The position numbers were made by a program, and so were the translations under genes. DNA of 64,000 bases from a virus. The stretch is from IMG/VR virus record IMGVR_UViG_3300047443_000115, positions 1 through 64,000 of that record; one strand, written 5' to 3'. The notes under the pieces are model-generated. The model made no database searches, was not told the origin of the DNA, and was given only the letters and a program-made list of their open reading frames with translations. Shown one piece after another: positions 4,897 to 28,157 of this stretch. Every line of letters begins with the position of its first letter. Within the stretch, counting starts at the first letter, position 1.

Positions 4897-5943
4897 ATGA
4901 GTCTGCTTCCGGAACCCGTCACCGCAGCACCCAGTGAGCTTGAGTCCGCACCCGCTGCGGCGGTGAAGCTGCGCGGCACACCTCCCGCCGCGTCACCGGC
5001 CGCGCTCGCCGCCCTGCTCCGTGACGCCGGCGCCGCGCCCGGCATCCTCGAAGCAACTGAGGCGTGGATGAACAAGCGCGAGTCCGAGCACTCCCGCATC
5101 GCCTACGCCAAGGACGCGTCCTGGTGGCTCGCCTGGTGCGCCGCATCCCAGACCGACCCGGCCGCCGCGCGCGCGGTCCACACCGACCAGTACGCCGCCG
5201 CCCTGCGCGAGTCCGGTCTCGCCAAGTCCACCCGGGCCCGCCGCCTCGCCGCCGCCTCATCCTGGTACGCCTACCTGGTGCGCGCCGAGGTCGCAGAGCG
5301 GAACCCATTCGCCGGTATGGACCGTCCGTCGGTGTCCGCCGACGACTCGCCCACCCGGGGCATGACGCCCGCCCAGTTGGCCAAGTTGCTGACCTACGCC
5401 CGCGAACACGAAACCGCGCGCACCTACGCCCTGCTCGTCACCCTCGCCACCACAGCCGGGCGCATCGGCTCAATCCTCGCCGCACCCGTGGCGGCCGTCG
5501 GGCATGACGAGGGGCACCGCGTCATCGACCTGGTGGTGAAGGGCAACCACGCCAAGCGAGTCGTCCTCGTCCCCCTCGCCGTCGCCGCCATCGAGACGTA
5601 CCTCGCTGAGCGCGGCAAGGCCGACCCCGAGGCGCCACTGTTCGCGACGAGCACCGGCCGGCCGATGGATGAGCCCGCCGCGTTCCGTACCGTGCGGCGG
5701 GTGGCGAAGGCCGCGGGTATTCCGCACGCTGACGCCATTTCTCCCCACTCGCTGCGCCACTCCTACGCCACGGCACTGCTCAGCAAGGGCGTGCCGCTCG
5801 CCGACGTACAGGACGCCATGGGACACGCGGACCCGCGGACCACTCGACGCTACGACCGCGCGGCGGGTGCCCTGCACCGATCGCCTTCGTACCGGATGGC
5901 GGAGGAGTTGGCGAAGGCCATGCACGCACCGCCAGGTCCATAG
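4897..5943 (+). CDS. int: Tyrosine site-specific integrase
   Basis: 348 residues. An N-terminal SAM-like core-binding domain (about 48-140) is followed by the catalytic domain with the full active-site set: Arg189 (TAGRIGS), Lys215, His284-x-x-Arg287 (PHSLRH), His310 (MGHAD) and nucleophile Tyr319 (TTRRYDR). No arm-binding zinc domain is seen; the first 45 residues are Ala/Pro-rich. It would integrate the element by recombination between attP and a host attB, possibly a tRNA gene. Expression is probably limited by the dyad overlapping its leader. Confidence 0.93.
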   Translation: MSLLPEPVTAAPSELESAPAAAVKLRGTPPAASPAALAALLRDAGAAPGILEATEAWMNKRESEHSRIAYAKDASWWLAWCAASQTDPAAARAVHTDQYAAALRESGLAKSTRARRLAAASSWYAYLVRAEVAERNPFAGMDRPSVSADDSPTRGMTPAQLAKLLTYAREHETARTYALLVTLATTAGRIGSILAAPVAAVGHDEGHRVIDLVVKGNHAKRVVLVPLAVAAIETYLAERGKADPEAPLFATSTGRPMDEPAAFRTVRRVAKAAGIPHADAISPHSLRHSYATALLSKGVPLADVQDAMGHADPRTTRRYDRAAGALHRSPSYRMAEELAKAMHAPPGP

Positions 5944-9622: not shown

Positions 9623-11818
9623 TCAGCTTGTGGTGATGACGATGACGATGCCGTCGCCGCCAGCACCGCCAGCACCGGATGCGTTGCCGTTGAGGCTGCC
9701 TGCGCCTCCTCCGCCGCCGGCGCCGTACTTACCGCCCGCGCCGCCCGCGCCCGACGCGGCTGCGGTGGCGGATGCTCCGCCGCCTCCGCCGGTGCCGGTG
9801 AGGGGGTAGCCAGCCGTTACGGTCACGCCGGCGCCACCTGCTCCGCCCGCGGTGCCCGCTGCGCCGCCCGCGTTCGCGCCCGCCGACGAGACGTTGCCGC
9901 CAGCCGCACCGGAGGATGCGGCCGGGGCTGTGGTGACACCGCCACCGCCACCCCCGCCGGGCGCGGAAATCCCGACGCTCGTGCCTGAGCTACCGGCGCC
10001 ACCCGTGCCGGACGAGGCGCCGCCCGCGCCGCCGTTCGATCCACCTCCGCCGCCTGATCCTGCGGCGGCCGCCCCAGTGGATCCGCCACCGCCGCCGGCG
10101 CCCGCATTGGCGACGAGGAATGTGGTGGCCTTGAAGACGGAGTTCGTTCCGATCGAGCCCGCATTGCCGACCGTGCCGTCGGTCGTGATCGACGTCCCCC
10201 CGGCGCCGCCCGCGCCGACGGTCACAGTCTCGGTCGCGCCGAGGAGGGACGCCGGAATGGTCCTGGTGGTGTACGCGCTGCCGCCGCCGCCCGCACCGCC
10301 GCTGGACACGGTGCCGGACGGCTCACGGGCGCCGCTCCCGCCGCCGCCGCCCCCGCCGATGGCCACGACCGTCACCTGTACCGCGCCAGCAGGCTTCGTC
10401 CAGGTGCCCGAGGAGGTGAATGTCTGCACATCACTGAGGGCCTTGGCGGGCACCCATGTTCCACCGCTCCGCACGTACAGCACTAGGTTGGTGGTGTCGA
10501 CGGCGAGGGTGCCGTTCATGGGGACGTGCGTGAAGGCGCCGTCGGTCACCGCCCCGGCGACCTGTGGGACCGGGGAGTTCCCCCACCATTTGCTGGGAAC
10601 AGTGCCGCCGACTTGGGTGCCGGTGCTGCTGTAGCAGTTGACGACCTGGAAGTCGCTCGTGCTTGACGGTTCGAAGTACAGGTGGACGCCGGTGGGTGAG
10701 GCGTTGTAGTTGCCGACGACGTTGCGCGCGACCGCTGTACCGACGCCGGAGAAAAAGTCCAGACCGGAGTTGACAGTCGAAGAGGCGCCTGTCGAGATGA
10801 GGACGTCCTCGATCGCCGAGTTGCCACCCGACCATTGGATGACGTTCTGGGCGGTGCTGTATCCGCTGTAGAAGCCGCCGGAGTACATGTACAGGTGGTT
10901 GGCGAAGACGTGGCGGCACGCGGACGTCACCTGCAGGTGGGGGCCACCCCGGACCTGGCTGGTCTCGAATTTGCTGTCCGAGATGTAGATGCCGTTCGGA
11001 TTGTTCGTCGCGGCCGGGCCCTGCTGGATCCACAAGGCGCCGGTGAAGAAATTCTCGAACCGGCAGCCAATGAGGTGGATCTGGTTGGTGTTGTCGGCGC
11101 TGTACCCGAATCCGCTGGTCGCGGCACTGTTGCGCAGCAGAATGTTGGGCGTTGAGGCATCGGCGGCACCGCCGCAGGACTCGATGACGAGGTTGTAGAA
11201 CCTGCTGTCCCAGAACTCCGCCGTGTCGATGCACGTGTCCAGATTGCTGCTGACGAAAAGGTCGCGGAAATAGTGGTTGTCCGCGTAGTACAGCTGTAGG
11301 ACCAGCCCGGTGTGGCCGTTGCCGTTGAAGCCGAGACTCTCGATCGAGCAGTACTTCCGGTGGGTCCTGCTGCTGGTGTCCGTGCCGGGGCCTGACATCG
11401 ACAGGAGAACGCCATTGGCAGTCTTCTTCAGCGTGGCTGCCTTCGAGCCTGCCCCGACGAGCCGAATGCCGTTGCCCGTCAGCGCCAGGGCCGGGCTGCT
11501 TGTCGGGGTGACCAGGTAGACCCCGGCAGGAAAGTACACGACGCCGCCGCCCGCAGCCGTGCACGCGTCGATGGCGGCCTGAATGGCGGCGGTGTCGTCC
11601 GTGACGCCATCACCGAGCGCACCCTTGTCCTTGACGTTGTGCCAGTCGCGGACGCTTCCAGCGGTACCGGCGACGACGTTTTCAAGATTGAGGTCGCCGA
11701 TCGACGCGTAGGGAAGGCGCTTGGCTGCCCGCAGTTCCCGCATCTCCTGCTCCAGCGCCTGGACCTTGCGTGCCAGAGCGTTGGAGCCGGGGGGGAGCTG
11801 GTCCAGTCGATTGGCCAT
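9623..11818 (-). CDS. Tailspike with pectate-lyase-like beta-helix and Gly-rich tip
   Basis: 731 residues from an ATG overlapping the upstream stop (TGATG) with GGAGG before it. Order: coiled coil with ARKVQALEQEMREL (about 10-35); a Pectate_lyase_3-type entry motif DWHNVKDKGALGDGVTDDTA (54-73) and a right-handed beta-helix to about 450; a hinge; then a 170-residue glycine-rich C-terminal domain with repeated GGAGGxGG, like adhesin tips of tail fibres. It probably binds and perhaps degrades a cell-surface polymer. Confidence 0.82.
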   Translation of the reverse strand: MANRLDQLPPGSNALARKVQALEQEMRELRAAKRLPYASIGDLNLENVVAGTAGSVRDWHNVKDKGALGDGVTDDTAAIQAAIDACTAAGGGVVYFPAGVYLVTPTSSPALALTGNGIRLVGAGSKAATLKKTANGVLLSMSGPGTDTSSRTHRKYCSIESLGFNGNGHTGLVLQLYYADNHYFRDLFVSSNLDTCIDTAEFWDSRFYNLVIESCGGAADASTPNILLRNSAATSGFGYSADNTNQIHLIGCRFENFFTGALWIQQGPAATNNPNGIYISDSKFETSQVRGGPHLQVTSACRHVFANHLYMYSGGFYSGYSTAQNVIQWSGGNSAIEDVLISTGASSTVNSGLDFFSGVGTAVARNVVGNYNASPTGVHLYFEPSSTSDFQVVNCYSSTGTQVGGTVPSKWWGNSPVPQVAGAVTDGAFTHVPMNGTLAVDTTNLVLYVRSGGTWVPAKALSDVQTFTSSGTWTKPAGAVQVTVVAIGGGGGGGSGAREPSGTVSSGGAGGGGSAYTTRTIPASLLGATETVTVGAGGAGGTSITTDGTVGNAGSIGTNSVFKATTFLVANAGAGGGGGSTGAAAAGSGGGGGSNGGAGGASSGTGGAGSSGTSVGISAPGGGGGGGVTTAPAASSGAAGGNVSSAGANAGGAAGTAGGAGGAGVTVTAGYPLTGTGGGGGASATAAASGAGGAGGKYGAGGGGGAGSLNGNASGAGGAGGDGIVIVITTS

Positions 11819-12900
11819 CAGATGTCCTCCAGCAGGATCGGGGTGACCTTGTCGGCGCTGGCGTCGAGTTCCCAGGACCAGCAGCGTGCGGCGATGTCTG
11901 CGCCGCTGAAGTGGCGGGGGGATGTTTCGACGGTGAGGCGGACGGTGTCTCCGAGTCCCCAGTCCCGGCCGAGCCGGGGTGCTTGGGAGGCGGTGGCGTT
12001 CAGGGTCCATGCCTGCGCGCCCTGCGCCATGGCGGCAAGAGCCTCGACAGCATGGGCATCGAGAGCGTCGGGGTCGGTGATGCCGGTGGCCGGGGTGTAG
12101 CGGTACTGCCACAGGCACCAGCCGTTGGCGATCAGGTCGGTGGCGATGTGAGCGCTGGAGGTGAGCCGGGAGTCCCCTTCACCCTCACCCCGTGCGATGA
12201 CAGAGTTGGCGCCTTTGCCCTGTTCGTAGGACTTGACCAGGTGGTATTCGGTAACGCTGCCGGGGAAGTCGAAGGTGCCCTCAGGGGTTGCGGTCTGGGT
12301 GCCGACGGCTGCCCGGATCCTTATCGGAAGGATGAACCCGGTGCGGGTGGCGTTCCAGGCGATGTCGACGGTCCACTCGGGGCCGCCCTCCAGCGCCATG
12401 ACCTCCTGGGCGCAGGACAGGATCGTCTTGTCGTCGGAGTCGGCAACCGCGTAGTCCATGGTCACGCCCGTTGTTACGGCGTCGACGACGAAAGGCGGGC
12501 CGTTGGTGAGTGCCGGAGTGAGCAGGGTGCTGAGGACGGTGGCCTGGTCCACTCCGATGAGCGTGTGCCCACCTGGGTAGCGGCTTGCGAAGTAGGTCTC
12601 CAGTGTGGCGGCGCCCAGAGAGACGGTCTGGGAGCTTCCGCCGTCCTGGGTCAGCGTTACGCCCGCCCATAGCGGCAGGTCGGTTGCGGTGTCGACGGCG
12701 ACCAGCATGCTCAAGCCCGGGTCGGTCGCAGCCTCCCAGTCCGCGGTCGCCCCCGGCAGTGCGAGGTCGAACTGTGTGGTGGTGGAATCCCCGAGGCGCC
12801 GGCTGAGAGCCCCGGTCGGCTTCAGGGATGGCAGGTCTTCGATGATGTCGCCGGTTTTGAGGTCGCAGCCGTACCAGGCCAGTACGTAGGGCTCGGTCAC
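11818..12900 (-). CDS. Minor tail protein, tail-hub/Gp37-like
   Basis: 360 residues, no signal or membrane segment. Position between Dit-type and tailspike genes, and the fold outline (beta-rich N-terminus, DKTILSCAQEVMALEGGPEW in the middle, GDTVRLTV and a final beta strand) fit the ReqiPepy6 Gp37-like/tail-hub proteins of actinophages. It would form the baseplate hub below the tail tube. Start GTG shares one base with the upstream TAG. Confidence 0.65.
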   Translation of the reverse strand: MTEPYVLAWYGCDLKTGDIIEDLPSLKPTGALSRRLGDSTTTQFDLALPGATADWEAATDPGLSMLVAVDTATDLPLWAGVTLTQDGGSSQTVSLGAATLETYFASRYPGGHTLIGVDQATVLSTLLTPALTNGPPFVVDAVTTGVTMDYAVADSDDKTILSCAQEVMALEGGPEWTVDIAWNATRTGFILPIRIRAAVGTQTATPEGTFDFPGSVTEYHLVKSYEQGKGANSVIARGEGEGDSRLTSSAHIATDLIANGWCLWQYRYTPATGITDPDALDAHAVEALAAMAQGAQAWTLNATASQAPRLGRDWGLGDTVRLTVETSPRHFSGADIAARCWSWELDASADKVTPILLEDI

Positions 12901-14823: not shown

Positions 14824-17800
14824 TCAGCCCACGAAATTCAGGTGGCGGGCAATGTCCTGCGCCTGCTCGGCAGAGGACTGCTTGGCGCCGTACAGGTGGA
14901 TGGTGACCTGCTTGGACACCTCCCGGGCCACGGCCGCCGTTGACACTCCCGCCGATGCGAACCGTCCGGCGGGCACAAGCTGGTAGCCCGCGGCGGCAGC
15001 CGTTGCGGCCATGAGGGACCGGGAGCGGCTGCTGCCGTCCCAGGGGATCCACGACTCCCGCACGCCGGCCTCGCCGCCGAGGACGGCGGTGGGCCGGTTG
15101 AGGATTCCGCCGCGGGCCATGGCGACGCCGCCCTGCTGGACCCACTGCCGCACGAAGGTGTCCTTGTACTCCGCCGGCAGTGCACCGATCTGCTGGGCGA
15201 TCTTCGGCACGAGGGCCTTGATGGTGGCCGTGTCGAGTCCTGCCGCGATGAGCTGGGCGTAGCCGCTGCCGGGTGCTGCCCGCAGGGTGGAGATCAGCGT
15301 GAGGGCGTTGGTGAGGTCGTCGCCCGTCAGCGTGGCTGCGTTCTTCTTGACCGCACTGTTGGCTGTGGCGGCTGCGGTGGATGATCCGGCAGCCTCGTGC
15401 GCGAGAGTCTGAGCGGCGGCATCACCTTGCGCGGCGAGGCTTTGCGCGAGATCGCCGTAGCCTTCGGCGGCGAGTTTCTGCAGGTCAGCCGCAAATTGCG
15501 CGTTGACTTTCGTGCTTGCGTTGATCTGCTTGTTGAAGTCGGCCAGCGTGGCCTTGGCCGTGTCGCCGGTCTTGAGCAGCTTCTTGACGATGTCGTTGAA
15601 CTGCTTTTCGGACGCCCCGGCGAGGCTGTTGACCAGCGCGTAGCCGTCTTCGCCCATCGCCTCCAGGAGCGCCTCGACTTCGGCCCCTCCACGCTTGGCG
15701 ATCTTGCCGAGGCTGCTGCGCCACTTCTCGGTCGCCGCCACGGACTTGCCGAGCTGGTTCTGGTAGGCCTTCAGATCGAAGCCCGCGGGGGCCTTGGCGC
15801 CCTTCTTCAGCCCGAGCGCGGCGTCGACCGCGTTGACGCCGGACCGCGCGGAGGTGACGGCCTTCGTCGCCTTCGTCTCCGCCTCGCGGGCCTTCTTCAG
15901 CTTGTTCTCGGCGGCTTCGAGTTGCGCTTCGGTGTGGTGATGAGACCTCACCTTGTGCAGGTTGGCCTCGGCCTCGGAGGTCGCATCGGCCTTTTTCTTC
16001 GCGTCGGCCATTGCCGCCGCGAGCTTCTTCCACGCCTCCTTGAGCTGCTCGATGAGCTTGTCGTACCGCTGCTTCGCATCACCAGGGCCGCCGAGGACGG
16101 GGGCGCCGCCGGGGGTGTAGGTGAAGCCGCCGGAGGCGTAGTGCCGCAGGCCGCCGTTGGCGTACCAGGCGATGCTGGAGGGGTCTCCGCCGAGGCGGCG
16201 CACGATCTCTTCGGTGATCCTCCGCGAGCGAGGCCGCTTTGACCTCGCGAAAGGCACGTAGCCCTCACCCTGGGTCTCCGGCTCCGCCCACACACGCATC
16301 GCCCCGGCCGGGGCGATCTGCGCGATGTGCCGCTCGCGCATGCCACCGTCGGCGTAGGCGCTGAAGATGTTTCCGTTGGCGCTGCTCTTGGCCTGCTGCT
16401 TGGCCAGGGCGATGGCTTCGGAGTACGTCTTGATGTGGGTGACACGGCTGACCGAGAGCGTGACGGACTTGTCGCGCAGCCCACGGATCGCGGCTGCGAG
16501 GGCATCGACGTTCCTCTTCTGCGTGCCGGTCGGCACGGTGATCGTGACGTTTCTGCCCTTGGTCCGCTTGACCTTGTAGCCGAGGTCTTCCAGGGCCCGC
16601 TGCCCGGCCTGCGTGAGGGCTTTGACCTCGATGGTCTTGCCCTTGGTGCCGCGCACCTTGCCCTGTACGGCGTCCAGATCCTTCAGCGCGGCGGCGGCGT
16701 CGACCCTGACCTGCGTGGCGCTCTTCGGCGAGAGCTTCGCGTAGGCCTTCGTCAGGCTCTTGATCTGGGTCTCGGTGAACCCGGCCTGGCGCATGGTGCG
16801 CTTCAGAGCGTAGATGTCCTGCTCAAGCACCTTATTGCCTGCGGTCACCGAGTTCTTCTGCTCGGACACCGCCTGCGCGTGATCCATCGCCGCCTTGGCG
16901 GCATCCAAGTACGCCGACTTGTTCTTGCGGCCCTTGTCGGTGTGGATGTCCAGGCTGTGACCGTTTTCCTTGACGGAGTCCCGGACGTCGGCGAGGGCCT
17001 GCTGGAACCCGATCTGCGCCTCGGCGACGGAGATGTTGACCCCGTTGAGGGTCTTCAGTGCGTCGGTGAGCTTCTCCGCCTCGGTGCGCTGATCCGCCAG
17101 GGCGTCGGCGGTGGTCTGCGCGGCGTCGGCGAGGGCGCCCTGCTTGTCGCCGGTCAGCTTTGTCTGCGTGTCGACTCCGGCGAGGGCGTCGGTGTACTGC
17201 GGGAGCAGCGTCTTGAGTTTCTCGGTACTGGTCCCCGACGCGTTGGCCTCGGTGGCCATGCGCGCGAAGGCCTGCGCCGCGACGTCGGAGTTACCGGACT
17301 GGACCAGGGATGCCAAGGACTGATCCAGGGCAGTGACCTTGTCGCGGGCTTCCTCCAGGTTGCCCTGGTCGCCCATGAATGGGTGGGTGACCGAGTACAG
17401 CACGTCGTTGACGCGCTTGAGGACGCTCGGGTGCGCGATGCGCGCGACGGCGTCGCCGACGCCGTCCAAGTTGTCGCCGAATGCCTTGGCGGCCTCGCCG
17501 GAGACGGTGCCTTTCTGTGCCAGGTCGACCAGCGAGTTGGTGAGCTTTGCGACGTCCGGGGGGGCGTCCTTCAGGACACTGTTGAGCTTCTCCGAGGCGT
17601 AGGACATCGCGGTCAGGCCGGCCACGACCAGCGAGGCGCGCCCCATCGTCGCCATTGCCGCACTGGTGCGGGCCGACGTCAGCCCCAGTGTCTGCATCTC
17701 GGTGCGTACCGTGCGGATGCGCGGCAGGGTGAGCAGCAGCGAGGTGCCAACCAGGCCGATCGCTCCGGCCAGGCCAGCGATGACGATGGCGGACTGCTGG

Positions 17801-19482
17801 ACCGGGCCTGGCAGTTTGCCGAACCACCTGATGACCGTGGTCAGGGCCTGCACGACGTCGCGGAGCATGCTGGTGGCTCCGGAGCCTCCCTCGATGAATG
17901 CGGTCTCCAGGGCGCTCTTGAGGCGCTGCAGGTCACCGACCAGGTTGTCGGTCTGCGTGGACGCGTACCTGCTGGCATAGCCCTGGTCGTTGGCTGCTTT
18001 GGTCCACGTTTTGATACCCGCCGCACCGGACTTGTAGACGACGGTCGCCGCGCGGGTGGCATCGGATCCGAAGATCGTGGCGAACGCTGCGTTGCGGGCT
18101 TCCGGGGTCAGCTTGGAGAAGGACTGCTGCATGCGGGCCGCGGTCTCGCTGAGGCCCACAAAGTTGCCGCTGCTGTCGTAAGCGGAGAAGCCAAGCCGGT
18201 CCATGAGGTCGGCAGCCTCTTTGGAGGTCGGTGTGAGGCGCATCAGCATCGTCTTGAGCGATGTGCCTGCGTCGCTTCCCACTAGCCCGTTCTGGGCGAA
18301 CAGGGCCAGCGAACCGGCGGTCTGCTCCAGCGTCAGGCCCGTCTGGTGGGCCATGAGCGCCGACTGCGCGAAGGCCAGGCTCATGCCGTGTACGTCGGTG
18401 GCGCTCTTGCCTGCAGCGGCGGCGATGACGTCGGCGATGTGCGCCATATCCGAACCCTGCAGGCCGAAGGAGTTCATGGCCTTGGCCGCCACCACGGCGG
18501 AGTCAGCCACGTCCATCTGGCCGGCCGCCGCCAGGTTCAGGGTGCCCTTGAGGGCGCCGCCGAGAATGTCGGCGGTGGACACGCCAGCCTTGGCGAGCTC
18601 AGTCTCTCCTTCAGCGGCCTGCGTGGCCGAGTACTGGGTGGTCTTGCCCGCCTGGATGGCGGCCTGCCGCAGCTGGTTCAGCTCGCGAGTTCCGGCCCCG
18701 GTGGCGGCCTTGACGCCACTCATGGCCTTCTCGAACTTCGAGCTGGCGTATACGGCGAGACCGAATGCTGCGACGAGGGTGAGGGACGCAGTGCGAGCGC
18801 CTCGGAGGGATTTCTCCGAGCTGGCCGCGCCCACGGTCACGGCTGCGCCCATGGCGCGGGCCCTGGCGCTGACGCGGGCCAGCGACGAAGCGGCGGCGGC
18901 CTGGGACGCCCGCGACGCCTGCGTGGCCTCCGCCAGCGCCAGTCGGCTCGCCAGAGACAGCCGGTTCGTGCCGGTCACCCCGGCCGCCGTCGCCTCGGTC
19001 ATGGCGGCTTGAACCTGAACGACTGACTGGGCGGCGCCCAGCATGGCCTGACGGCTTTGCATGGCCTGGCGCGTCATGCCGCCCATGGTCTGCGTGGACG
19101 CAATCCCGGCCGCGCGGAACGCGGGAGGGATCTCGCCTGCTGCGACTGCAACCTGCCGTGCCGCCCGTGATGCGCCAGCGGCACCCTGTGCCACCGACCG
19201 TTCGGCGAGCCGGGTGGCCTGGCTGGCGGCGCGCGCTGTCTCCTGCGTCATGGCCCGCGTGCCGTTGGCCAGGGCCTGCGACGACTGAAGAGAAGCCCGC
19301 TGCACGCCTGTCAGTGAGGCCTGCGCCTGGCGCCCCACGTTGGAGAACGTGCCGCCCGCCTCCGCGGCGGCGCGCTGCGCGGACCGCGCCATCCGCTGAG
19401 TGCTCTGCTCGGCCTGACGGCTGCCCGCCTGGAAGGCCGTGGCGTCCAGGCGGAGCCGCACATTCACGACGCGATCGGCCAT
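14824..19482 (-). CDS. Tail tape measure protein
   Basis: 1552 residues. Residues 1-240 are Ala/Gln-rich coiled coil; the TP901-type core (about 245-560) includes SKFEKAMSGVKAATGAG and the AKAMNSFGLQ and GTSLKTMLMRL landmarks. A hydrophobic segment (IVIAGLAGAIGLVGTSLLL) follows, then long helical stretches; the C-terminus has AGGILNRPTAVLGGEAG-type motifs. At about 0.15 nm per residue it predicts a tail of roughly 230 nm (inference). The gene starts 4 bases after the GT stop. Confidence 0.95.
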   Translation of the reverse strand: MADRVVNVRLRLDATAFQAGSRQAEQSTQRMARSAQRAAAEAGGTFSNVGRQAQASLTGVQRASLQSSQALANGTRAMTQETARAASQATRLAERSVAQGAAGASRAARQVAVAAGEIPPAFRAAGIASTQTMGGMTRQAMQSRQAMLGAAQSVVQVQAAMTEATAAGVTGTNRLSLASRLALAEATQASRASQAAAASSLARVSARARAMGAAVTVGAASSEKSLRGARTASLTLVAAFGLAVYASSKFEKAMSGVKAATGAGTRELNQLRQAAIQAGKTTQYSATQAAEGETELAKAGVSTADILGGALKGTLNLAAAGQMDVADSAVVAAKAMNSFGLQGSDMAHIADVIAAAAGKSATDVHGMSLAFAQSALMAHQTGLTLEQTAGSLALFAQNGLVGSDAGTSLKTMLMRLTPTSKEAADLMDRLGFSAYDSSGNFVGLSETAARMQQSFSKLTPEARNAAFATIFGSDATRAATVVYKSGAAGIKTWTKAANDQGYASRYASTQTDNLVGDLQRLKSALETAFIEGGSGATSMLRDVVQALTTVIRWFGKLPGPVQQSAIVIAGLAGAIGLVGTSLLLTLPRIRTVRTEMQTLGLTSARTSAAMATMGRASLVVAGLTAMSYASEKLNSVLKDAPPDVAKLTNSLVDLAQKGTVSGEAAKAFGDNLDGVGDAVARIAHPSVLKRVNDVLYSVTHPFMGDQGNLEEARDKVTALDQSLASLVQSGNSDVAAQAFARMATEANASGTSTEKLKTLLPQYTDALAGVDTQTKLTGDKQGALADAAQTTADALADQRTEAEKLTDALKTLNGVNISVAEAQIGFQQALADVRDSVKENGHSLDIHTDKGRKNKSAYLDAAKAAMDHAQAVSEQKNSVTAGNKVLEQDIYALKRTMRQAGFTETQIKSLTKAYAKLSPKSATQVRVDAAAALKDLDAVQGKVRGTKGKTIEVKALTQAGQRALEDLGYKVKRTKGRNVTITVPTGTQKRNVDALAAAIRGLRDKSVTLSVSRVTHIKTYSEAIALAKQQAKSSANGNIFSAYADGGMRERHIAQIAPAGAMRVWAEPETQGEGYVPFARSKRPRSRRITEEIVRRLGGDPSSIAWYANGGLRHYASGGFTYTPGGAPVLGGPGDAKQRYDKLIEQLKEAWKKLAAAMADAKKKADATSEAEANLHKVRSHHHTEAQLEAAENKLKKAREAETKATKAVTSARSGVNAVDAALGLKKGAKAPAGFDLKAYQNQLGKSVAATEKWRSSLGKIAKRGGAEVEALLEAMGEDGYALVNSLAGASEKQFNDIVKKLLKTGDTAKATLADFNKQINASTKVNAQFAADLQKLAAEGYGDLAQSLAAQGDAAAQTLAHEAAGSSTAAATANSAVKKNAATLTGDDLTNALTLISTLRAAPGSGYAQLIAAGLDTATIKALVPKIAQQIGALPAEYKDTFVRQWVQQGGVAMARGGILNRPTAVLGGEAGVRESWIPWDGSSRSRSLMAATAAAAGYQLVPAGRFASAGVSTAAVAREVSKQVTIHLYGAKQSSAEQAQDIARHLNFVG

Positions 19483-19485
19483 GGA

Positions 19486-20315
19486 CTACCCCCCGCGCTT
19501 GGTGACGGTGACGTGCAGGCCGCGGCTGTCGCCGCCCCGGTTCTGGTAGGCGGAGACGGCCTTCGTGGCGGTCGTGCACGCGTGGCAGCGAATCAGCTCG
19601 GCCTGGTACTTGAACTCGTTGTCGGGGTCCGTGACCTCGGACCAGGGGTGCCTGCAGTCCGGGCACTTCTCGGCCTCGATCTGCGCCAGGGCCAGCACCC
19701 ATGCCCGGTCTTCCTCAAGCCACAGCGACTCCCCCCGGGCAGGCCACGGGCGGCCCATGAAGACCGATCTGGGGATGCCGTGCGCCCGCGCGACTTCTAC
19801 TTCACGTCGCCAAGGGCCGCGAGGATCGCGGAGGCGCTCACAGAGAAAGGGATGGAGGTTGCCTCCGTGTTCACCGAGTAGGCAGCCCTGAACAACTCGC
19901 CGCGCTGCCCCTCGTTCAGCACCTCGTACAGTTGCCCCACCTCGGGCTCGGTCATGACCGGGTCGAGGCAGCACGCCGCGATCAGCGCCTTGGGGAACGT
20001 GGTCGGATCCCAGAGTTCGTCCGGGTTCTTCGCCGGGTGTGCCGCCAGTAGGTCCGACCACACCTTGTCGCCCAGCGCGCGCAGCCGGAACTCCACCGCG
20101 GACTCCTGCATCCGCGTCCGGGCCGCCTGAATCTGCTGGGCCAGATCCTTCGACGGATCGGTCGCGGCCAGCGAATCCGGCGCCCATGTGTCGGCCAGGC
20201 CGGCGAGCTGCCGCTCCAACTGCTCCACCTCGGACGCAGCCGACCCGTCCAGGTAGATGGGCAGGGTTGTCTCGCGCGGCTTGGCCCGGTTGAGGATGTC
20301 GCTGATATCGGGCAT
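19486..20315 (-). CDS. Tail assembly chaperone GT, -1 frameshift product
   Basis: Predicted 276-residue fusion: 157 codons of the G frame read to the slippery CCCTTTC, then 119 codons in the -1 frame. The joining is exact: after the slip the next codon starts at 19845 and the frame stays open to the stop at 19486. The T extension carries CPDC and CHAC pairs (a zinc ribbon). The downstream frame has no credible start of its own before the tape measure. This is the lambda G/GT arrangement, with G in excess over GT during tail assembly. Confidence 0.85.
19797..20315 (-). CDS. Tail assembly chaperone G
   Basis: 172 residues from an ATG overlapping the tail tube stop. Acidic and helical, with no catalytic motif; the DKVWSDLLAAHPAKNPDELW and CCLDPVMTEPEVGQL stretches are typical of actinophage tail assembly chaperones located just before the tape measure. 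It shares its first 157 residues with the frameshift product. Confidence 0.85.
   Translation of the reverse strand: MPDISDILNRAKPRETTLPIYLDGSAASEVEQLERQLAGLADTWAPDSLAATDPSKDLAQQIQAARTRMQESAVEFRLRALGDKVWSDLLAAHPAKNPDELWDPTTFPKALIAACCLDPVMTEPEVGQLYEVLNEGQRGELFRAAYSVNTEATSIPFSVSASAILAALGDVK
19845..19851 (-). promoter_or_regulatory. Slippery heptamer for programmed -1 frameshift
   Basis: C-CCT-TTC in the G frame (codons ATC CCT TTC) is a canonical X-XXY-YYZ heptamer. It sits 16 codons before the G stop, and both tRNAs re-pair perfectly after slipping to CCC TTT. Confidence 0.85.
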
Positions 20316-20794
20316 CAGGCCACCGTGGCGGCGGTCGCGGGCGGGCTCGTGACCTTCATCGGGCTGACGAACTTCATGACTTCGTTGGCGGCGGGGCTGC
20401 TGTTCTGCGGCTCGCCGCAGGTGATCGGGTAGATCTCGGCTTTCTGTCCAGCAGTCCACGCGGTGGCGTAGGCGACGCCGCGGCGGACGGCCAGGTAGCC
20501 CGAGACGCCGTACTTGAGGGTGGCGTAGGGCAGATCCTCGGGGGTGGTGGTGCCGCGCTTGTAGGTCGTCTCGGTGTCGAATCCGACACGGCCCACGGTC
20601 TTGGTGTCGAACGTGCTGGCCAGCGACGACGTGTCGACGTCGGCGGTGGACGGGTCGATCTTCAGCCCGTCGGGGGTGATGCGGGTCGTGAAGTCCTGAC
20701 CCGCGGTGAGCTCGGCCGCTGTCGGGGCGTTGATGTTGGCGATGCTGGTCACCCAACTCACCTTGGTCATTCCGTCGTTGATCAGGTCGGACAT
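20315..20794 (-). CDS. Major tail (tube) protein
   Basis: 159 residues. Position directly before the G/GT pair and a beta-rich composition with an N-terminal SWVTSIANINAPTAAEL start are typical of actinophage tail tube proteins; YGVSGYLAVRRG and a C-terminal KFVSPMKVT strand follow. The intrinsic terminator just upstream (20814-20836) suggests it has its own promoter or receives read-through. Confidence 0.75.
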   Translation of the reverse strand: MSDLINDGMTKVSWVTSIANINAPTAAELTAGQDFTTRITPDGLKIDPSTADVDTSSLASTFDTKTVGRVGFDTETTYKRGTTTPEDLPYATLKYGVSGYLAVRRGVAYATAWTAGQKAEIYPITCGEPQNSSPAANEVMKFVSPMKVTSPPATAATVA

Positions 20795-26177: not shown

Positions 26178-28157
26178 TCAGACGCTCCAGCCCAGATAGC
26201 CGTATTGGCGGAGCAAACTGATGGCCTCGTCGCGGCTACCGGCGATGCGATAGATCTGCTCAGGCAGCAGACGCGGCGAGGAAAGTTGGAAACGCCTGGG
26301 GTACCGGGGCGAAGCCGTGCCCGCCCGATAGGCGCGCGACCGCTCCATCTGGAAGTACAGGCCGCGGCGCGTGGTGCCCTCGTAGGTGGCGCGCAGTCGG
26401 CCGCCGTAGCCGTCGGCCGCGGTGTACATGCCGCGGCGGGCGTTGACGACGGAGTTCATGTCTGCGCCGTCCCGGATCGCCTTCGCCCCGGCCTGGGTGA
26501 AGATGCGGTCCTGCTCGGCGCGGGACAGGCCCTTGAAGTAGGCCTGCGGATCGAACGCGCCGGGGATGTGGCGGTCACGAGCGATCAGCTTTGCGGGCAT
26601 ATGCGTACAGTCACAGTTTGATACAATGAGACTGTTCGCAACGTGCCACCCCTCGACCGAAGTGAGGCTGTAAACGTGCCCGCTCCACTCGCTCCGGCGA
26701 AGCTCGACTACGCGATCGAGCTCTACCTGTCCGGAAAGCCGATCCAGGAGATCGCGACCTTGGCGGGCATATCCGTCACGCGTTTCCACCGAGAACGAGT
26801 CTCCCGGGGCATCCCATCGCGGAAGACCCGCGATCTCCCCATCAGTGAAATCGCGTCCGCCTACCTCAATGGAGCCAGCGAGTTCGCGCTCGGCAAGCAG
26901 TACGGGGTGTCCCGAAATGTCATCGCGCGCCGCCTCGCGGAAGCCGGAGTACAGCGGCGTGACGCCAGTGAAGCTGGCGTTGTCAGGGCGGCCAAGTTGA
27001 GCGCTGGCGAGCGCAAGACCCAGGCCGCCGCCGCCAACCGGGCCGCCCGATTGCGTCGCGTCCCACAGATTCAAAAGCATCGACGCGCGCTCGGCATCGA
27101 ACTGGCCGGTCAAGCCCAGTCCTCCGGCGAGGCCGAGTTGCACCAACTTCTTGCCGACCGTGGCCAGATTGCCACTCGCCAGCGCGCGATCGGCGTATAC
27201 AACGTCGACCTCGCCTTGCTGCCCGTCGCCGTGGAAGTCCTCGGTGGCGGTTGGCATGCGGTCAAGACCGTGCACGCTGAGCGCACCCCATACGTCCTCG
27301 ATGAGGGATGGCATCTCGTGATGGTCTGGGACTACGAGGGGCGTAGCGCCCTCGGGGCGGGTGCTGCGGACTACCTCGTCGCCTTCTTGGATGAGGTTCG
27401 CCGGAACCCACCCGCGACTTGTCAGTACCGGGTGATTTCCGGTCAGGGCGAGGTTCTGGCCGCTCGCGGTAGAGAGGACAATGAGTTCCCCTTGGAACCA
27501 CCGCCGCGTGGCCGCCTGTGACCTAGGCCCCGACACCACCACTCCGGCCGGGAAGCAGCGCGGATGCCGTTGGAAGCCGGTATTCCAGCCGTACTCACGT
27601 CCGGCGAGGACGATGCACCGACTGCACGCGGGCGGGTTGACCACCCGGATATAGCCGTTGATCGTGCGGTTCCCCGCGATCGACACCCCGGTGGCCGCCC
27701 TCCCGGCGTCCGTGACCTCCGACGCCGCCATGCGCAGCAACTGCTGCAGGCCCGTCATCATCGCCTCGACCTCATCGACGCCTGCCGCGATGGCCGTCTT
27801 CGACGTGATGAGCGGCAGATCCAGCAGCGTGTCCAGCGACCGACCATCAGCAGCAAGCCCAGCGAAGGCCTCTGGACGGACACGGCCCGCGGGATCCGAA
27901 CTCAGACCCCGTGCCGCGATGATGGACTCGACGTAGGCGTCTGCGGCTGCCGCCGTAGCCAACTGGCCGGCGGTCACCGTGCGGACCACCTCCGGGCCGA
28001 TGTAGATGGCCCACGAACGGCTCAGATCGCGGCGGTCGATCTCCCGCCACAACTGCTGAACCCGGTCCGCCACCCGGCGGGCATGCGACTGCTGAGCCAC
28101 ATAGAAGGCGTTCGCGAGCTCCTCGGCCGACAAATCCCGCACCGACCCCGTGGCCAT
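26178..28157 (-). CDS. MuF-like head morphogenesis protein interrupted by an intein
   Basis: 659-residue precursor. N-extein 1-200 is a helical portal-associated domain ending ACSRCIVLAGREYGWNTGF, QRHPR; C-extein 515-659 begins CDCTHMPAKLI. Removal of residues 201-514 restores the family motif HPRCDCTHMP, giving a 345-residue mature protein. The intein (Hint blocks present) lies at the zinc-like motif, the most conserved spot. The gene overlaps the portal stop and lies in the usual portal-MuF-scaffold order. It probably rides inside the procapsid near the portal. Confidence 0.87.
   Translation of the reverse strand: MATGSVRDLSAEELANAFYVAQQSHARRVADRVQQLWREIDRRDLSRSWAIYIGPEVVRTVTAGQLATAAAADAYVESIIAARGLSSDPAGRVRPEAFAGLAADGRSLDTLLDLPLITSKTAIAAGVDEVEAMMTGLQQLLRMAASEVTDAGRAATGVSIAGNRTINGYIRVVNPPACSRCIVLAGREYGWNTGFQRHPRCFPAGVVVSGPRSQAATRRWFQGELIVLSTASGQNLALTGNHPVLTSRGWVPANLIQEGDEVVRSTRPEGATPLVVPDHHEMPSLIEDVWGALSVHGLDRMPTATEDFHGDGQQGEVDVVYADRALASGNLATVGKKLVQLGLAGGLGLTGQFDAERASMLLNLWDATQSGGPVGGGGLGLALASAQLGRPDNASFTGVTPLYSGFREAARDDISGHPVLLAERELAGSIEVGGRDFTDGEIAGLPRWDAPGDSFSVETRDGYARQGRDLLDRLSGQVELDRVVELRRSEWSGHVYSLTSVEGWHVANSLIVSNCDCTHMPAKLIARDRHIPGAFDPQAYFKGLSRAEQDRIFTQAGAKAIRDGADMNSVVNARRGMYTAADGYGGRLRATYEGTTRRGLYFQMERSRAYRAGTASPRYPRRFQLSSPRLLPEQIYRIAGSRDEAISLLRQYGYLGWSV
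26616..27557 (-). mobile_element. Intein in the MuF-like gene
   Basis: 314 codons. Block A begins at Cys201 (CFPAGVVV); block B is LALTGNHPVLTSRGWVPA with the TxxH pair Thr239/His242; block F is VYSLTSVEGWHVANSLIVSN; the last residue is Asn514, followed by Cys515 as +1 nucleophile. The penultimate residue is Ser, not His, which is tolerated in some inteins. The middle 200 residues have no LAGLIDADG or HNH motifs; the nuclease is on the opposite strand. Confidence 0.85.
26643..27521 (+). CDS. Vsr-like homing endonuclease, antisense within the intein DNA
   Basis: 292 residues (GTG 26643; GTG 26676 is possible and better placed to GAGG). Two HTH units (IQEIATLAGISVTRFHRERV; FALGKQYGVSRNVIARRLAE) precede a Vsr/PD-(D/E)XK-like core: GEAELHQLL (Glu163/165), YNVDLALLPVAVEVLGGGWH (Asp189, Glu198, His205) and WHLVMVWDY. 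It lies wholly inside the intein. Its codons are in register with the sense codons, so its stops would need sense TTA, CTA or TCA, which are rare here. The last 35 residues may be a shadow of the Hint domain. Confidence 0.75.
   Translation: MPPLDRSEAVNVPAPLAPAKLDYAIELYLSGKPIQEIATLAGISVTRFHRERVSRGIPSRKTRDLPISEIASAYLNGASEFALGKQYGVSRNVIARRLAEAGVQRRDASEAGVVRAAKLSAGERKTQAAAANRAARLRRVPQIQKHRRALGIELAGQAQSSGEAELHQLLADRGQIATRQRAIGVYNVDLALLPVAVEVLGGGWHAVKTVHAERTPYVLDEGWHLVMVWDYEGRSALGAGAADYLVAFLDEVRRNPPATCQYRVISGQGEVLAARGREDNEFPLEPPPRGRL

Follow-up and report, generated by a model that had tools for sequence, protein, structure and literature searches.

The gene between the tail tube and tape measure genes of the stretch of DNA analysed here (64,000 nucleotides, hereafter the window) is almost certainly a tail assembly chaperone gene of the lambda G/GT type, with a programmed -1 frameshift predicted at positions 19851-19845. 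The observations behind this reading are the slip site and its phase, the conservation of the site, a switch of coding frame in one clade and the fold resemblance of the zero-frame product G. The window belongs to a 91,588-base virus record with a GC content of about 68%, and the phage appears to be a relative of Streptomyces prophages. It encodes a tyrosine integrase (4897-5943, plus strand; PF00589, E 2e-26) and is therefore probably temperate, or a prophage.

The order of genes on the minus strand is terminase, portal, MuF-like head maturation protease, further ORFs, tail tube, G, T and tape measure. Both Pfam and PHROG assignments place the G/T pair between the genes for the major tail protein and the tape measure. 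The tube gene is directly upstream of G, its stop sharing one base with the G start codon, and a gap of three bases separates the T stop from the ATG of the tape measure gene. The features are as follows.

20315..20794, minus strand: major tail (tube) protein gene (Pfam Phage_TTP_16, E 1.3e-43; PHROG major tail protein).
19797..20315, minus strand: gene G, zero-frame tail assembly chaperone, 172 aa (ORF with ATG at 20315 and TAG at 19799-19797).
19862..19866, minus strand: GGAGG, Shine-Dalgarno-like (SD-like), 10 nt upstream of the heptamer (duplex energy -9.5 kcal/mol).
19845..19851, minus strand: slippery heptamer C CCT TTC, in phase within G, the bases CCCTTT being invariant.
19486..19845, minus strand: predicted T extension in the -1 frame, 119 aa plus stop, giving a 276-aa GT fusion (conservation and variability in the T frame).
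19576..19665, minus strand: putative zinc ribbon of the extension, C61-x2-C64 and C87-H88-x-C90 (conserved cysteines).
14824..19482, minus strand: tail tape measure protein gene, 1552 aa (Pfam PhageMin_Tail, E 1.2e-50; PHROG tape measure, E 2.3e-94).

A preliminary description of the window had proposed that C-CCT-TTC lies in the correct phase 16 codons before the G stop. Recomputation places the heptamer at 19851-19845 on the minus strand, in phase, as the sole canonical in-phase site in G; 15 sense codons separate it from the TAG, so that the stop is the 16th codon. The same description held that only the slip frame stays open to the tape measure gene, and this agrees with the reading frames: the -1 frame is free of stops from 20315 to 19488, that is, through all of G, and the +1 frame is closed by a stop at 19840, just past the heptamer. 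Reading on after a -1 slip yields the 276-residue product that had been predicted, ending at 19486, and the CPDC and CHAC motifs ascribed to the extension are both located there. Conservation of T begins at the fourth residue after the slip. At least one canonical in-phase heptamer arose in 7.1% of 5000 synonymous recodings of G in which the amino acids were fixed, with 0.060 of this expectation of 0.071 coming from the last 30 codons of G, the site of a Pro-Phe pair; none was present in the seven other window ORFs checked. Given the frequency among the recodings, the window by itself is suggestive and no proof.

The weight of the argument falls on the relatives. Searching with the T extension gave 14 viral loci and searching with G gave two; from the 128 relatives found with an 18-row alignment, the best 80 were retained. 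Together with locus L020, five deposited phages and the window, these make up 87 loci, 69 of them non-redundant over 127 bases. An in-phase CCCTTTY is present in all 87 loci, which include the best 80 of the 128 relatives (CCCTTTC in 82, CCCTTTT in 5). Loss of the heptamer in close relatives, which the preliminary description had named as grounds for abandoning the frameshift, was thus not found. The patterns of the T-extension search and the 18-row search lie in T, downstream of the heptamer, and hence did not select for it; conservation on this scale is far beyond chance. The end of G is less constant. Its stop follows the slip by one codon in 18 of the 69 non-redundant loci, by 15 in 42, by 16 in three, by 14 in five and by 10 in one, and the heptamer is kept in every one of them, which makes the slip site more constant than the end of G. 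Bacterial genomes contributed a further 23 loci (18 from Streptomyces, two from Kitasatospora and one assembly each from Streptosporangiaceae, Acidimicrobiales and Ilumatobacter), some of them apparently the same prophages as IMG/VR loci. CCCTTTY is found in 21 of the 23, and the Acidimicrobiales and Ilumatobacter loci carry an in-phase CCCAAAA near the end of G. What the comparison reveals is the same slip site kept across a large group of Streptomyces-type phages and prophages.

A switch of coding frame at the heptamer is visible in the clade of 18 loci whose G stop lies one codon past the slip. Upstream of the heptamer, variability falls on the third positions of G (0.60-0.89 versus 0.00-0.46 bits), while from 15 bases past the heptamer start it falls on the third positions of T (0.37-1.15 versus 0.00-0.34 bits). 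The seven bases of the heptamer itself are invariant across this clade. In the 42-locus clade the codon-position signal upstream is weak (third positions of G, 1.04-1.38; others, 0.72-1.39), and both frames are coding over the first 45 bases past the slip; beyond them, the third positions of T are the most variable. CCCTTT is invariant in this clade as well.

These data bear on whether T might instead be a separate gene with its own start, perhaps coupled to termination of G, the heptamer being a by-product of a conserved Pro-Phe pair. T is annotated as a separate ORF in some records, and in the GC-rich DNA of the window the T frame has no stop anywhere in G, as this account would allow. However, Pro-Phe needs no CCT, and yet the Pro codon of the heptamer is CCT in 69 of 69 loci, each time preceded by C; elsewhere CCT accounts for 4.9% of the 510 Pro codons upstream in these G genes, and for 20 of 184 in eight ORFs of the window. 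Start codons are also scarce. From 20 codons before the slip to three after it, 50 of the 69 loci have no ATG, GTG or TTG in the T frame, and a start accompanied by an SD-like motif occurs in a single locus; in the window, the first T-frame start in the scanned range is residue 30 of T. Moreover, six of the 69 loci have a T frame that is closed two to four codons upstream of the heptamer, and in these same six the first 23 codons of T, a stretch that includes the conserved R13 and E15, contain no ATG, GTG, TTG or CTG, so that no start is available before conserved residues. In these loci T is hardly reachable except by a shift at the heptamer or within a few codons of it. For the family, the scarcity of starts and the closed frames led us to reject an independent T start, and we regard a separate T gene as very improbable.

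Less probable still is that some other event links G and T, be it a +1 or -2 shift or slippage at another point of the overlap. Some colour is lent to this by two distant Streptomyces phages, Quantum and Frankenweenie, in which the annotated T lies in the +1 frame and no in-phase -1 heptamer was found. In the window, on the other hand, T is in the -1 frame relative to G, whose one canonical in-phase site is this heptamer, and in five loci the T frame opens only two codons before the heptamer, leaving nearly no room upstream. As for transcriptional rather than ribosomal slippage, runs without a homopolymer longer than three are a poor substrate for polymerase stuttering; the CCCTTT run contains none, and this account is scarcely credible.

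Under programmed ribosomal slippage at 19851-19845, most ribosomes would translate G and terminate at 19797. A minority would slip back by one base with both tRNAs on the heptamer, Pro moving from CCT to CCC and Phe from TTC to TTT, and would read on in the -1 frame to give the 276-aa GT fusion, whose T part would end in a module with four ligands that probably binds zinc. If the parallel with lambda holds, the tape measure protein would be coated by G and GT, T would recruit the tail tube subunit, and both chaperones would leave afterwards. That slippage takes place, how efficient it would be, the metal and what G and T do are inferred from the observations and analogies given here.

The mechanism is already established in other phages, and so the window gene adds a further member to a known kind, one whose comparative support is unusually clean. 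In lambda, compared by arrangement, the site likewise lies between the tail tube and tape measure genes, with a -1 shift near the end of G and an extension in the -1 frame; unlike the window gene, lambda slips on GGGAAAG, and its T extension lacks the cysteine pair. Lambda G and GT are both described as binding the tape measure protein, and T as binding the tail subunit (PMC5009743). The Arthrobacter phages Hestia, Persistence, Richie and Eileen resemble the window more closely, with a homologous T, a CCCTTTY 14 codons before the G stop and an annotated joined gene. They differ in that T identity is 31-38%, the fourth cysteine is at 71 (seven after C64) and not at 90, and an opposite-strand gene lies between T and the tape measure gene. 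In the Streptomyces phage phiC31, gp41/gp42 is a joined gene annotated with 'ribosomal slippage' just before the tape measure gene, but no in-phase XXXYYYZ heptamer was found in its G, and its extension, when translated in the frame used at the annotated end, contains a single cysteine. Experimentally confirmed shifts are given for lambda, P2, L5, TM4, phiC31, HK022 and HK97 in PMC5313236, and a joined frameshift gene for 2,476 of 3,679 SEA-PHAGES genomes in PMC10274946. Among open-access papers of one library that mention this heptamer with frameshift and tail, none deals with phages, judging by title.

The T extension carries a conserved set of cysteines. Among the 52 aligned T rows, C61, C64, C87 and H88 are invariant, and C90 is present in 47; the other five, from the four Arthrobacter phages and Brevibacterium phage AGM1, have a cysteine at 71. 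These five rows are related, and the change from C90 to C71 may therefore be a single event. The T of L020 carries both C71 and C90. Loss of C90 together with gain of C71 fits what would be expected of a four-ligand metal site, and the module is likely to be a four-ligand zinc site. The ribbon segment contains at least four cysteines in all 68 non-redundant relatives, 67 of which fit one of two C-x2-C patterns, the remaining one having C-x-C; in L076 and L108, C-x-C replaces C-x2-C. The preliminary description had regarded a zinc ribbon as uncommon in T domains. This holds for the classical extensions compared, those of lambda and phiC31 (HK97 and TM4 were not counted), which lack one. It does not hold for the relatives, since all 68 have these cysteines and seven distant T domains have the same set or a near one; zinc-ribbon cysteines are the rule in this T family rather than a rarity.

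Searches for known zinc folds gave no confident match. None of the Pfam zinc families reached its cut-off on the T of the window (best, PF13451, 15.9 bits against 24), and over the 52 T rows the commonest family at E ≤ 0.1 matched nine. T shows weak sequence matches to zinc-finger chains (best E 0.0058). Its structural model (mean pLDDT 90.6, pTM 0.56) gave three Foldseek matches to solved structures, all with E > 5, and one row with a second aligner (Z 2.0). Against a library of viral models, two matches had E < 0.001, both to tail assembly chaperones, of Microbacterium phage Footloose and Arthrobacter phage Faja. No description of zinc in a T domain was found in the open-access literature of one library, including passages of PMC5009743, PMC9030533, PMC5313236 and PMC3706429. 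A broader proposal, possible if rather doubtful, is that T represents a separate and hitherto undescribed kind of extension of tail chaperones, built around a structural zinc site. It would be found in phages from several orders of Actinobacteria and perhaps in a Microcystis phage; its ligand set could be rewired (C90 to C71, with both in L020), and T would need the metal in order to recruit the tail tube protein. Should the metal site prove real, chelating the metal or replacing cysteines would give a simple handle on tail tube recruitment by T outside lambda.

Among deposited phages, the T of the window matched 68 records, from Arthrobacter and Brevibacterium phages, and that of L062 matched 36. 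With the T of L020 there were 77 records at E ≤ 0.01 and 87 at E ≤ 1, including four and seven Streptomyces phages, respectively, one Bifidobacterium phage and one Microcystis phage. The T of Faja matched 13 records, two of them Glutamicibacter phages, and that of Bifidobacterium phage Bbif-1 matched 70. In seven distant deposited phages, T is either the immediate upstream neighbour of the tape measure gene or at a distance of one gene from it. Six of their T domains have two cysteine pairs or the Arthrobacter-type set, and that of Microcystis phage MinS1 has C-x-C plus CHAC. Together with the matches to deposited records, the cysteines of these distant domains show the zinc-type T domain to be widespread among actinobacterial phages. 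In-phase heptamers are CCCAAAA in LuckyBarnes, Faja and Bbif-1, TTTTTTG in Molivia and CCCTTTG in MinS1; no in-phase -1 heptamer was found in the other two of the seven, Quantum and Frankenweenie. In these two Streptomyces phages (L115, 462-1575, and L120, 690-1803) the T ORF, which has paired cysteines, is in frame +1 with respect to G, so that the type of shift may have changed within the T superfamily.

The annotation of such genes is uneven. Four of the five deposited relatives (Hestia, Persistence, Richie and Eileen) have an annotated joined gene, and AGM1 does not. PHROG 19456, which bears no function label, was matched by 47 of the 52 T rows at E ≤ 0.01, and PHROG 20192, a tail assembly chaperone, by 19 at the same threshold. 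On the strength of these matches, we propose that PHROG 19456 represents a T domain made by frameshifting; several ORFs labelled hypothetical, 'translation initiation factor' or 'terminase' likewise appear to be T domains that arise in this way. The T of AGM1 (L006, 1351-1569) is labelled 'translation initiation factor', that of Bbif-1 (L118, 1959-2255) 'terminase protein large subunit-like' and that of MinS1 (L119, 1890-2282) hypothetical. In all three phages the ORF upstream of T has an in-phase XXXYYYZ heptamer close to its end.

We also looked for stimulators of slippage around the heptamer. The duplex energy of the upstream GGAGG exceeds the synonymous expectation weakly. An SD-like 4-mer is present in all 18 early-stop loci and in five of the other six, and is missing from 21 of the 45 loci in the clade of the window. 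Against synonymous recoding, the motif has a mean z of about -0.5 in each of the two main clades and of -1.0 in the other six loci, values uncorrected for relatedness. Because so many loci of the window's own clade are without it, an upstream SD-like stimulator was discarded as a family feature; GGAGG is a possible stimulator in the lineage of the window only. The sequence GGAGG-CAA-CCTCC (19854-19866, minus strand) could form a 5-bp hairpin two bases before the heptamer and so hide the SD-like motif; its GGAGG and CCTCC arms are identical in L008 and missing from many relatives.

Downstream, single-sequence folding of 50 nt after a 5-nt spacer gave z 0.05 for the window and a mean z of -0.45 over 69 loci, six of them below -2, and consensus folding of 38 aligned sequences returned no pairs; neither supports a conserved stimulatory structure. 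A CCGCGA/TCGCGG hairpin that starts 13 nt past the heptamer, seen in the window and also predicted in L007, was set aside, being absent from the consensus. The slip site may do without RNA structure and shift with modest efficiency, as would suit a low ratio of GT to G.

The AlphaFold model of G (mean pLDDT 86) drops below 50 at residues 156-158, which correspond to the slip site. Twelve predicted viral structures in BFVD matched it at E ≤ 0.001; the three that are named are tail assembly chaperones (Faja once, Molivia twice), and the rest are uncharacterised or unnamed. Among solved structures, the best match, well above the rest, was YqbN (3klu; Z 10.2, rmsd 3.7 over 103 residues), which we take to belong with the tail chaperones. 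The Vibrio element ORF19 (5ir0) had Z 6.7 over 88 residues, and the HK97 chaperone (2ob9) matched weakly (Z 6.5, rmsd 4.7 over 99 residues), with a Z equalled by unrelated helical-hairpin chains. The modelled fold of G resembles those predicted for annotated phage tail assembly chaperones. In NCBIfam, neither G nor T had a match near the cut-off.

Two further genes of the window drew attention. The MuF-like head maturation protease gene (26178-28157, minus strand) contains a 314-residue intein-like insert at 26616-27557, which begins with Cys201 and ends in VSN ahead of Cys515; its match to Intein_splicing (E 0.0035) is below the cut-off. Downstream of the tail genes, the product of 9623-12118 (minus strand) has a pectate-lyase-like domain (PF12708, E 6.8e-19) and is a candidate tail spike or fibre enzyme.
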